Shown here: positions 26,121 to 30,259 of the stretch, one piece after another | Numbering within the stretch: the first letter of the stretch is position 1 | Layout: every line of letters begins with the position of its first letter | The notes under the pieces: generated by a model | What the model was told of the DNA's origin: nothing | The model's input: the letters and a program-made list of their open reading frames with translations, nothing else | The model's database searches: none | Assembly: GCA_016191995.1 (NCBI GenBank) | Contig: JACPVA010000047.1 | Span: 1 to 32,152 of the forward strand | Reading direction: 5' to 3' | DNA from: Burkholderiales bacterium | GTDB taxonomy: Bacteria > Pseudomonadota > Gammaproteobacteria > Burkholderiales > Burkholderiaceae_C | Length of the DNA stretch: 32,152 nt | Translations under genes and position numbers: made by a program

Positions 26121-26702
26121 TCACTGCGGCCGCAGCACCATCCTACCCTGTGCCAGGCTGGCGTCCAGGTCGGTCTCGTCGACCTCGTCGTGCACCAGGT
26201 TCTGGTGGCAGTCGATGCAGGTCGCGCCATGGCTGCGCATGCGCGCGTGCGCAGCCTTGGCGCTGGCGCCGGGCGGCTGCGGGTCGCGGTGGCAGGCACG
26301 GCAGGTCACGCTGTCCCAGCGCTTGAGGTTCATGCGCGCGTGGTGCGCCATCTCGAGGCGCCGCGCGTCGAAGGCCTCGATCGTCGAGTAGTCGTGGCGG
26401 AACTCCAGCACCAGCTCGCGCGCGCCGTCGACCAGATGCGTGGCCAAGGCCAGGTGCAGGTTGGCCAGCCCCTGCGGCACATGGCAGTCGCGGCACTCGG
26501 GGTTGGCGCCCAGCGCACCGTAGTGGGTCGACTTCCTCAGCTCGGCGGCCGGATAGCTCATCGAGTGGCAGCTGGTGCAGAACGCGGTCGTCGACAGCGC
26601 CGCCTCGCCGCCGACCGCCAGCAGCACCAGCAGCACGCCGCCGGCCACCCCGGCTGCGAGCGCGGCACCATGGCGCCGCAGCCGAGAGCGCGACCCGGCC
26701 AT
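26121..26702 (-). CDS. CycB/cM552-like tetraheme cytochrome c, NapC/NirT family
   Basis: A 193-residue membrane-anchored cytochrome with one N-terminal membrane helix (about 12-35) and four CxxCH sites at 42-46 (CTSCH), 70-74 (CRDCH), 134-138 (CRACH) and 162-166 (CIDCH). NapC/NrfH relatives exchange electrons between the quinone pool and periplasmic partners. In ammonia oxidisers the gene in this position (cycX/cycB, cytochrome cM552) is proposed to pass electrons from cytochrome c554 to ubiquinone. It is shorter than the Nitrosomonas protein (about 239 residues as I recall). Its ATG overlaps the cycA stop by one base. The assignment to cM552 rests on the gene order; by sequence alone it could be called NapC/NirT. 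Confidence 0.9.
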   Translation of the reverse strand: MAGSRSRLRRHGAALAAGVAGGVLLVLLAVGGEAALSTTAFCTSCHSMSYPAAELRKSTHYGALGANPECRDCHVPQGLANLHLALATHLVDGARELVLEFRHDYSTIEAFDARRLEMAHHARMNLKRWDSVTCRACHRDPQPPGASAKAAHARMRSHGATCIDCHQNLVHDEVDETDLDASLAQGRMVLRPQ

Positions 26703-27412
26703 CAGTCCTCCGAGCCGCGCGCGGCCGGCTTGGCGCCGGACTGGAACTCGTCGCGAAACGACGGCAGCGGCGGCCCGCTGAAGACGCCGTCGAGCTTGAA
26801 GTGCGCGTGCATCGCCTTGTCGCTGCGCACCGCCTTGGCGAAGTCGAAGGCGTACTTCGGGTCGACTTTGGGCGTGAACGGGGTGTAGGGCTTGCTCGCC
26901 TTGGCCCAGGGCGAGCCGGCGTAGTTGAGGTGGCAGGCGTTGCAGCGCTCCTGGAACTGCAGATCCTGCCCAGCCTCGACGAGCTGCTGGCGCGCCATCG
27001 TGCGGCCGTTCTTCTCGAACGCCTGCCCGGCCTTGCGGTGCAGCAGCCGGTATTCCGCGCCCGGCCCGTGGCAGGACTCGCAGCCGACGCCGACGAGGTA
27101 CTTGCTCGGATCCTTCGGCTCGAAACCGCCCTCGTGCCCGAAGCCGGTCGAGTGGCAACCGACGCAGTCGGGATCCTGGCGGTAGTCCTTCGCCGGGTCC
27201 AGCCCGGCCTTCTTCTTCGCCTCGGCGCGCGCCTGCGGCGCGAGCGAATCCATCGCCATCGCATGCGCGGTCTTCTCCCACGACTCGAGCTGGCTGCGGT
27301 GGCAGGAGCCGCATTTCTTGCGGCCCTCGTAGTTCGGCTCGGCGCCGGCGGCCGCGACCAGGCCGCCCAGCAGGACGAGCGCGGCCAGTGCGCGCAGGGG
27401 ATCGAGGGTCAT
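26702..27412 (-). CDS. cycA: cytochrome c554-like tetraheme protein
   Basis: A 236-residue periplasmic cytochrome, practically the length of the Nitrosomonas c554 precursor. A short signal peptide ends near AAAGA-EPNY (residue 24). The four heme sites are CGSCH (34-38), CVGCH (83-87), CESCH (111-115) and CNACH (157-161), with the family pattern YEGRKKCGSCHRSQLESW and FEPKDPSKYLVGVGCESC. C554 takes two electrons from hydroxylamine oxidoreductase; NO-reducing activity has also been discussed for it. It follows haoB by 109 bp and is coupled to the NapC-like gene by a one-base overlap. The C-terminus ends in a charged, probably disordered tail. Confidence 0.9.
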   Translation of the reverse strand: MTLDPLRALAALVLLGGLVAAAGAEPNYEGRKKCGSCHRSQLESWEKTAHAMAMDSLAPQARAEAKKKAGLDPAKDYRQDPDCVGCHSTGFGHEGGFEPKDPSKYLVGVGCESCHGPGAEYRLLHRKAGQAFEKNGRTMARQQLVEAGQDLQFQERCNACHLNYAGSPWAKASKPYTPFTPKVDPKYAFDFAKAVRSDKAMHAHFKLDGVFSGPPLPSFRDEFQSGAKPAARGSED

Positions 27413-28559: not shown

Positions 28560-30259
28560 TCCGCGTCCTTGCCGCGCCGGCGCGCGATCGCCAGCGCCGC
28601 GCCACCGGCCAGCAGCAGCGCACCGCCCAGGCCGCCGAGCGAGGCGCGGGTGGCGCCGTCGGACGGCTCGAGCAGGCTGGTGCGCCGCGTCTCGAGCTTG
28701 GCGACGCGCTCCTGCAGCGACGCCATCGCGCGCAGCTTGGTGTCCTCGCTCATGATCTTCGAGTAGGCGCGGTTCATCGGCTCCCAGCCCTCGGTGTAGG
28801 TCCAGCCGCCGGGGTTGACATGCGCCAGCCCGACATGCAGCTTGGCGAGGTCGTTCTCGCCCATCTCGATGACCTCGAACTCGATCGACGAGGGGTTGTT
28901 GGCCTGGGTCCAGAAGAGCTGGAAGAACTGCGCCACACCCTCCTTGTCGGGCGGAGGCGGCGCCGGGCGGTTCGTCGTCTGTCCCGGCAGCAGCTTGTCG
29001 GCGTAGAGCTTCTCGACCACCTTGTGCGCCTCCTGGTACTTGGCCAGGCCCTGCAGCGTGCCCTTGTCCATCAGCTCGAGGTAGGACCGTGCCAGCGACT
29101 CGCTGTGGCACTGGGTGCAGGTCTTGACCCAGGCCTCGAGCCGCTTCTCGGACCAGGCGCTCGTGATGTTGGCGGCCACGCCGCCGGCCGAGGGGTAGTT
29201 GGCCCAGCGCACCTTGCGCACCATGTTGTGGCTGAACTTGCCCTGGTACTCCATGTGGCAGGTCTGGCAGGTCGGCGCCGTCTGCCCGCCCTTGGCGAAG
29301 GCGTCCTTCAGCGGCATCGACCAGTTCCACTCGCTGCCCTTCATCTCGGTGATCTTGCCGTGCTTGGACAGCGAGTAGGCCTCCCAGTTGTTGTGGTCGA
29401 TGCCGTTGTGGCAGGTCGCGCAGGCCTGCGGCTTGCGCGACTCGACGACCGAGAACTCGTGCCGCGTATGGCAGGTGTCGCACTTGTTCTGGTTCTGGTG
29501 GCAGGCGGTGCAGCCCTCGGCGATCTCGCGCTGCGGCATGCCTGCCCAGATCGTCGTCTCGACGTTGGCCTTGTAGTCCAGCGCGTGCGACGGCCGGCCC
29601 TTGGGCCATTCGTTGTTCGGCCAGGTGATGGTGTCGCGCTCGGACTCGCGCTCGGCGAACTCCTGCACGTGGCAGGTCGCGCAGACGTCGGCGGTCGGCA
29701 TGCGCAGGTCGGCGGCGTGGTTCGCGCGCCCCTGGGCGTTGACGTCGACGTGGCAGTCGATGCAGCCCACTTCCTTCAGCGCCTCGCCGGCGCCGAGCTT
29801 GCCCAGCGAGCGCAGGTTGGCCTCGACCTCTTCCAGCTTGGCCTTCTTGTAGAAGGTCGGGTCCGACGGCGCGAGCTGGCGGATGCGGTCCAGGTTGGCG
29901 TGCCCGCTCTTCTTCCATGACGAGACCCAGACCGGCGACTCGTCGGCGTGGCACTTGACGCAGTCCTCCCGCGACGCGACCTCCTTGACGGTGGCGGGCG
30001 GCTTGTAGAACGAATGCGGGTCGAGGTACTTGCTGAACGGGATCGGCTTCCAGTACTGGGCGTGGCTGCCGCGACCCGCGCCCTCGGCCGGGTCCTTGTA
30101 GCGCTTGACGAGCGCCTCGTAGAGCTGCTGCGGGCTGGCGCTGCGGTCGAGCTTCAGCGCCTCGTAGGTCTCCTTCGGGATCTCGGCCTGCGCCGCGACG
30201 GCGGACCACAAGCCGGTGACGAGCACGATCCTGCCGATCCTGCGCCACATCCTGTCCAT
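28556..30259 (-). CDS. haoA: octaheme hydroxylamine oxidoreductase
   Basis: A 567-residue periplasmic enzyme that in ammonia oxidisers oxidises hydroxylamine (to NO or nitrite). A signal peptide ends after VAAQA (residue 25). Eight CxxCH sites start at C100, C166, C193, C250, C260, C280, C331 and C381. Heme 4 (C250-H254) corresponds to the P460 centre. Counting from C250, Y488 in WTYTEGW lies 238 residues on and D288-H289 lie 38 residues on, the same spacings as Tyr467 and Asp267-His268 of the Nitrosomonas enzyme as I recall its numbering. The C-terminus carries an extra hydrophobic helix (about 541-560) before RRRGKDAD, a possible membrane anchor. The ATG at 30259 has a GGAGGAG site; an earlier start at 30292 is less likely. 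Confidence 0.94.
   Translation of the reverse strand: MDRMWRRIGRIVLVTGLWSAVAAQAEIPKETYEALKLDRSASPQQLYEALVKRYKDPAEGAGRGSHAQYWKPIPFSKYLDPHSFYKPPATVKEVASREDCVKCHADESPVWVSSWKKSGHANLDRIRQLAPSDPTFYKKAKLEEVEANLRSLGKLGAGEALKEVGCIDCHVDVNAQGRANHAADLRMPTADVCATCHVQEFAERESERDTITWPNNEWPKGRPSHALDYKANVETTIWAGMPQREIAEGCTACHQNQNKCDTCHTRHEFSVVESRKPQACATCHNGIDHNNWEAYSLSKHGKITEMKGSEWNWSMPLKDAFAKGGQTAPTCQTCHMEYQGKFSHNMVRKVRWANYPSAGGVAANITSAWSEKRLEAWVKTCTQCHSESLARSYLELMDKGTLQGLAKYQEAHKVVEKLYADKLLPGQTTNRPAPPPPDKEGVAQFFQLFWTQANNPSSIEFEVIEMGENDLAKLHVGLAHVNPGGWTYTEGWEPMNRAYSKIMSEDTKLRAMASLQERVAKLETRRTSLLEPSDGATRASLGGLGGALLLAGGAALAIARRRGKDAD

Follow-up and report, generated by a model that had tools for sequence, protein, structure and literature searches.

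The gene cluster haoA-haoB-cycA-cycB, encoding octaheme hydroxylamine dehydrogenase (HAO), HaoB and two tetraheme cytochromes, is found in the ammonia-oxidising bacteria (AOB) Nitrosomonas, Nitrosospira and Nitrosococcus. A related arrangement is known from Ca. Desulfobacillus denitrificans, for which Okubo and Takami (2021) reported haoA, haoB, c554 and cytochrome c genes, with narXL and narGHJI in the same region (PMC8402940), and a HaoA that clusters with those of AOB (PMC8402940). Here we describe such a cluster in a 32,152-nucleotide stretch of DNA (the window) from a Burkholderiales bacterium (contig JACPVA010000047.1 of assembly GCA_016191995.1), where haoA-haoB-cycA-cycB occupies positions 26121-30259 of the minus strand and is followed downstream by a gene for a MocR-type regulator, narXL and narGHJI. 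The cluster is a further member of this published kind, hao beside nar; as far as our literature search reaches, what appears to be undescribed is a conserved regulator and promoter box that accompany it.

Ca. D. denitrificans (DSYM_27790-27820) resembles the window in having the hao cluster in a denitrifier without AmoA or AmoC matches, and in having narXL and narGHJI within about 25 kb of hao. The HaoA proteins of the two are 80% identical and the MocR proteins encoded after cycB 75%, whereas their NarG proteins share only about 60%; neither the regulator nor the boxes are mentioned in the part of that paper available to us (PMC8402940). The clusters of Nitrosomonas, Nitrosospira and Nitrosococcus share the four genes and their order with the window, and HaoA is 65-70% identical in the Nitrosomonadaceae. 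They differ in that no amo was found in the host of the window, and in the regulator, as Nitrosomonas-like clusters have no MocR beside hao and Nitrosospira-like ones have it on one hao copy.

MocR factors combine a GntR DNA-binding domain with an aminotransferase domain that binds pyridoxal phosphate (PLP) (PMC5320631), and their operators consist of boxes repeated two to four times at intervals of helical turns, most of them having TGT or TGG at the core (PMC5320631). GabR, PdxR and TauR share with the MocR of the window the GntR domain, the aminotransferase fold, the PLP lysine and repeated TGG-containing boxes (PMC5320631), but the predicted target here is a hydroxylamine dehydrogenase cluster; the terms ‘hydroxylamine’ and ‘Nitroso’ are absent from the main text of that regulon survey, so far as it was available. 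Another comparison, by family and described role, is DnfR, a MocR-family factor that governs the dnf genes of Alcaligenes (dirammox), which belong to hydroxylamine metabolism (PMC12575085); its target is dnf and not hao. A 2024 paper calls for identification of the DnfR ligand (PMC11440038). A literature search of titles and abstracts, with most subscription journals outside its reach, returned no regulator or operator assigned to hao. To our knowledge, no dedicated transcription factor is known for hydroxylamine dehydrogenase.

We propose, with a probability of about 0.7, that haoA-haoB-cycA-cycB-mocR constitutes a five-gene module in which MocR would be the dedicated regulator (‘HaoR’), acting through boxes of the form TGGYACCA. 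Both the gene and the box are specified, and some cells hold linked as well as unlinked hao copies that serve as internal controls, so that the proposal can be tested with one protein and one DNA fragment.

A regulator gene and a promoter box that accompany hao

MocR, and not nar, is the conserved partner of hao, placed after cycB or divergent from haoA in both Beta- and Gammaproteobacteria. In tblastn searches with the genes of the window, MocR lies directly after cycB in loci L001, L002, L003, L007, L008, L009 and L010; in L011 it also follows cycB and is cut by the contig end, and in L005 it is divergent from haoA. Of 11 named genomes with hao, eight have MocR next to the cluster at 57-74% identity; a ninth (G310) is truncated by the end of its contig. 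Short domain matches aside, identity does not exceed 37% for any further MocR of those genomes, the exception being a 70% copy in G309. This copy (L118:9587-11038) lies away from hao, with frames resembling acyl-CoA dehydrogenase and alcohol dehydrogenase (names given by eye) adjacent to it. It was rejected as a second hao regulator, there being no hao gene in the 19 kb around it and its DNA-binding part not lying in the same frame; the gene may be decayed.

Wider surveys gave a similar distribution. Among 125 Nitrosomonadaceae genomes, 14, all from two genera, have a MocR match with an E value of 1e-60 or lower, and the gene follows cycB wherever the contig permits. Six Nitrosospira-like genomes (those that carry MocR, not the total of the genus) contain two to three hao copies, one of which is linked, with MocR directly after cycB. 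In these six loci (L180-L185) amoC-amoA stands tail to tail with the mocR-linked hao, 6/6, and mocR is the hao-side gene nearest to amo. In a survey of the class that scored no more than three candidates per genome, MocR at 53% identity or more turned up in 7 of 369 genomes, six times beside haoA and once not. The linked genes follow cycB in G000 and G766 and are divergent in G546, G441, G511 and G634. G000 is the query itself and G546 is apparently the genome of L005, leaving four new linked cases and one unlinked; G511 and G634 belong to the same genus, which makes fewer than six independent linked cases. Five MocR loci at 50% identity or less were not beside hao in the DNA examined; the contig of one of these measures just 4.5 kb.

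A 39-row MocR tree places every one of the 22 hao-linked rows in a single clade (100/100), together with three unlinked rows and nine of unknown place; this clade also takes in proteins of Nitrosococcus halophilus and N. watsonii. In N. oceani, a GntR gene, Noc0891, adjoins haoA (PMC3772326) and is probably an orthologue of the hao-linked MocR.

The second line of evidence is the box TGGYACCA, which was picked by eye from regions upstream of haoA and scanned for within 350 nt. The window has three copies before haoA, with spacings of 34 and 9 nt; they fit the MocR pattern of repeated operators and form a predicted operator. A box precedes haoA in 17 of 19 mocR-linked clusters versus 1 of 17 clusters without mocR, counts that are not independent since the promoters share descent. 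Linked loci with a box include 8/8 of the non-AOB beta-type, L005 and four of six Nitrosospira-like copies. The box was found in none of nine unlinked Nitrosospira-like copies, five g137 copies and six Nitrosomonas clusters; unlinked Nitrosospira-like and Nitrosomonas clusters taken together score 0/15, and L006 has none either. The local background is 0 to 0.23 boxes per 350 nt, and in 500 dinucleotide shuffles of the 19 linked promoters the mean was 0.26 and the highest count 3/19. TGGCACCA is the commonest 8-mer, present in 12 of the 19 linked promoters, with the next reaching 7. The promoters first examined after the motif had been chosen (G766, G441, G511 and G634) have the box in 4/4.

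The arrangement of the boxes also recurs. Three boxes with spacings of 34 (or 35) and 9 occur in the window, L001, L002, L008 and G766, some of them in the looser form TGGNNCCA. The tandem TGGYMCCAYTGGCACCA is found once each in G000, G300, G301, G302 and G307, always before haoA; it is absent from the other 17 genomes, and the reversed pattern from all 22. Scored after the motif choice and within 400 nt, a box precedes cycA in 12 of 16 linked loci versus none of seven without mocR, and in L003 it remains with cycA despite a gap of 4.4 kb between haoB and cycA. All 19 linked clusters have a box before haoA or cycA. We infer that MocR binds the box and controls hao.

Several observations weigh against this proposal. 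Hao can manage alone: no MocR was found by tblastn in the locus DNA examined of L004 (Arenicellales) and L006, no close MocR was found genome-wide in seven Nitrosomonas-like genomes, G303 (L004) or G305 (L006), and these hao clusters exist without it. Conversely, G624 carries a 53% relative of MocR that is not beside hao. The trees disagree for L002 and L003, which join Nitrosospira in the MocR tree and the clade of the window in the HaoA tree. Some of the promoters counted had already served for picking the motif by eye, and the promoters are related by descent. Two of the six linked Nitrosospira-like haoA promoters lack a box within 350 nt, the cycA promoter of the window itself lacks one, and L004 has a TGGTACCA box at -237 before haoA with no close MocR in its draft genome. 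As to the protein, the arginines with which GabR binds GABA (R207/R430) are missing, but this is not specific to the hao-linked group, since the seven non-linked MocRs compared also lack them, and their loss was discarded as evidence of an unusual ligand-binding pocket. Finally, the protein scores 442.4 bits against the PdxR model NF052282 (cut-off 320), and pyridoxine genes could be a target of MocR. As for L004 (L004:1-330, from a metagenome-assembled genome (MAG)), haoA is preceded by only about 300 nt before the contig stops, and a divergent mocR might be missing past that point.

Locus layout, enzyme type and direction of catalysis

The features of the window are collected in Table 1. Read along the minus strand from 30259 to 24506, the order is haoA, haoB, cycA, cycB and the MocR-type regulator; beyond it lie narXL, a tannase-like frame, an MFS frame, two nitrate-transporter-like genes and narGHJI. 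The canonical order of the four hao genes on one strand, claimed in the original prediction, is thus confirmed, as is the MocR gene as the separator of cycB and narX. The overlaps also claimed there hold for haoA/haoB (TTGA) and for cycA/cycB (one base), but a gap of about 110 nt separates haoB from cycA. In L003 (12719-17164), about 4.4 kb lies between these two genes.

Table 1. Annotated features of the window, with predicted operator boxes and neighbouring genes
Feature	Position	Strand	Basis or remark
haoA, octaheme hydroxylamine dehydrogenase, 567 aa	28556..30259	-	PDB matches; 8 CXXCH; Tyr488; C-terminal hydrophobic segment
haoB	27522..28559	-	TIGR04392; probable TTG start overlapping haoA stop (TTGA)
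cycA, tetraheme cytochrome c554-like	26702..27412	-	NF043010; PF13435; 4 CXXCH
cycB, NapC/NirT-family tetraheme cytochrome, cM552-like	26121..26702	-	PF03264; 4 CXXCH
mocR (‘haoR’), GntR winged-helix and PLP-dependent aminotransferase-fold regulator	24506..26104	-	PF00392 and PF00155
Predicted operator box 1, TGGCACCA	30398..30405	-	-146 from haoA start
Predicted operator box 2, TGGCACCA	30364..30371	-	-112 from haoA start
Predicted operator box 3, TGGCACCA	30355..30362	-	-103 from haoA start; tandem with box 2
narXL-type two-component pair	21867..24436	-	Context; not judged part of the system
narK-type transporters and narGHJI	7680..17597	-	Context; hao linkage not conserved

HaoA is of the oxidative type, as in ammonia oxidisers, judging from its sequence. 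Its best PDB matches are the hydroxylamine oxidoreductases 6m0p, 1fgj and 4fas, at E of about 1e-269 and over nearly the full length. Tyr488, in the motif WTYTEGW, aligns to Tyr467 of 1fgj, the P460 cross-link tyrosine, which marks the oxidative type of HAO. The window and five betaproteobacterial sequences from non-AOB group together (100/99) in a HaoA tree of 30 rows. This clade is sister (99/99) to 17 Nitrosomonadaceae rows, and FR_11/PRO2 and the remaining sequences branch outside the joint clade of 23 rows. The outgroup consisted of two octaheme rows without assigned function, and characterised reductive octaheme enzymes were not included. The structure matches and the tree bear out the original prediction of an HaoA of ammonia-oxidiser type.

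The partner proteins were scored against family profiles. HaoB, for which a check against its own profile had been proposed, passes it, with 332.9 bits against TIGR04392 (cut-off 200). CycA reaches 352.7 bits against NF043010, a model of the Nitrosomonas protein, which is under the cut-off of 400, and is over the cut-off for PF13435; CycB is over the cut-off for PF03264 (NapC/NirT) with 151.9 bits.

The nearest named carriers are Ca. D. denitrificans and four MAGs, whose full-length HaoA proteins are 79-81% identical to that of the window. HaoA is the sole Multi-haem_cyto match in the host genome. A survey of the order gave HaoA matches, many of them weak, in 21 of 300 genomes, and eight other genomes of the same family in that survey gave no match. 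In a Ca. Anammoxibacter MAG, a planctomycete bin, one contig of 7.3 kb (L006) carries haoA and haoB of proteobacterial type, which may reflect a binning error.

The proposal that HAO runs in reverse, from nitric oxide (NO) or nitrite to hydroxylamine or ammonium, has been put forward as an option for Ca. D. denitrificans (PMC8402940), and strong matches to the NirS family (Cytochrom_D1) in 10 of 11 genomes, with a profile that includes NirS relatives, are in keeping with it. We consider it unlikely, as the enzyme has the cross-link tyrosine and the full HaoA-HaoB-CycA-CycB set, as in ammonia oxidisers, and its HaoA is sister to that of the Nitrosomonadaceae and distant from the two octaheme outgroup rows. 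HAO would then oxidise hydroxylamine, probably to NO, in the periplasm, and electron flow via CycB into the quinone pool would follow from the protein families. A full electron-extracting module, together with its proposed regulator, occurs in denitrifiers in which no amo was found, and its HaoA belongs to the branch that is sister to the Nitrosomonadaceae enzyme. This bears on where the betaproteobacterial ammonia oxidisers obtained the module, and on possible consumers of leaked hydroxylamine, for example in anammox reactors.

Identity of the regulator and its possible signal

The MocR protein aligns to GabR and to other MocR-type structures, and its relatives suggest a start at about 26056. 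Its PLP lysine, K344, corresponds to K312 of GabR and is conserved in 23/23 hao-linked MocRs and in 115 of 120 listed homologues. Given its score over the cut-off of the PdxR model, the protein might simply be a PdxR that controls the supply of PLP and has been carried along with hao by inheritance. This seems improbable: MocR is kept beside hao in both downstream and divergent arrangements, a common box stands at haoA and cycA promoters and is rare in clusters without mocR, and the tandem box occurs nowhere else in the five genomes that have it, single boxes not having been counted genome-wide. The two roles would merge if a sensor of PLP shortage induced hao.

In the module proposed here, MocR would bind TGGYACCA boxes at the haoA promoter and, for most relatives, at that of cycA as well. 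In a host lacking amo, as appears to be the case here, hydroxylamine would come from outside or from side reactions of denitrification; the module would be a scavenging or detoxifying route that also gives electrons and is induced at need.

The nature of the signal is a more speculative matter. It may be hydroxylamine itself, converting the lysine-bound PLP to PLP-oxime, or the PLP shortage that results. Hydroxylamine turns lysine-bound PLP into PLP-oxime in ALAS (PMC7077987), and by analogy it is plausible that MocR senses hydroxylamine through its PLP. The PdxR label could mean that MocR senses PLP, and since PLP-oxime can form, hydroxylamine could register either by attacking the cofactor directly or by depleting PLP. 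It is possible, though doubtful, that MocR is a direct hydroxylamine sensor, in which attack on the lysine-PLP bond gives a PLP-oxime form that alters the dimer and turns on hao and cycAB, and that it is the ancestral regulator of hydroxylamine oxidation in Beta- and Gammaproteobacteria, predating the split between AOB and these denitrifiers, and was lost in Nitrosomonas. In N. oceani arrays comparing hydroxylamine with starved cells, the ratios were 3.6 for haoA, 10 for haoB and 9 for cycB, with ammonium giving about the same values (PMC3772326). For haoA the authors regarded the difference as not significant, and the GntR gene was unmoved at 1.15 (PMC3772326).

The nar locus and the host genome

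NarG, NarH, NarJ and NarI of the window are all above their NCBIfam cut-offs. NarX and NarL match models of nitrate sensors and regulators below the cut-offs, as do the two NarK-type transporters. The original prediction gave weight to the adjacency of hao and nar, and this was not supported. Among 12 non-AOB hao genomes, seven have a strong NarG and five do not, and NarG is close to hao in only two, G000 and Ca. D. denitrificans (G307), whose NarGs are about 60% identical; in G304 and G310 the contigs are short and the distance is not measurable. The NarGs that are 81% identical to that of the window lie on another contig (G309) or about 477 kb from hao (G306).

One might still suppose that hydroxylamine oxidation supplies quinol to NarGHI, with nar and hao forming a functional unit under NarXL, as both loci are present in the window and, in Ca. 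D. denitrificans, lie no more than about 25 kb apart, and CycB belongs to the NapC/NirT family. We give this little credence and have set the linkage aside as a functional unit, as it is not conserved among the 12 genomes and Ca. D. denitrificans expressed both haoA and haoB while no expression of narGHJI was detected (PMC8402940).

The host genome (G000) is a draft of 4.55 Mb in 199 contigs, 94% complete. A search for AmoA, with positive controls in the Nitrosomonadaceae, gave no match in it; AmoA was found in five of seven Nitrosomonadaceae and in none of 13 other genomes (12 distinct if G039 is G308). The two that were missed, G214 and G274, are assemblies called 99% complete in which AmoC is present; they urge caution with claims of amoA absence based on drafts. 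AmoA alone was accordingly rejected as proof of absence, and AmoC was searched for as well, giving 12/12 in the Nitrosomonadaceae and 0/12 in hao genomes outside that family, G000 included. The original prediction saw no amoCAB in the window; genome-wide, AmoA and AmoC have no match in the draft, and AmoB was not searched for. A draft of 199 contigs and the two missed AmoA genes might suggest an ammonia-oxidising host from whose assembly the amo genes dropped out. This is very improbable, as AmoC was found even in those two assemblies and the 12 genomes without it include that of Ca. D. denitrificans, titled a complete genome. The nirS gene that the prediction proposed to look for has a counterpart in the host, a NirS-type cd1 protein matching Cytochrom_D1 with 500 bits; matches over 400 bits were present in 10 of the 11 genomes searched, with the profile also covering relatives of NirS.

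Other neighbours of the cluster were noted. Genes for an Ogt-type methyltransferase and an AlkA-like glycosylase (30493-32040) lie directly upstream of haoA on the same strand; they were rejected as members of the module, having no match in the flanks of relatives, up to 10 kb. A DUF6351 tannase-like protein is encoded between narL and the transporters (19262-21838). Beyond nar, the window has genes for UbiU and UbiV of anaerobic ubiquinone synthesis (3128-5254), and a UbiU/UbiV pair is also found within a few kb upstream of haoA in L001 and L008.

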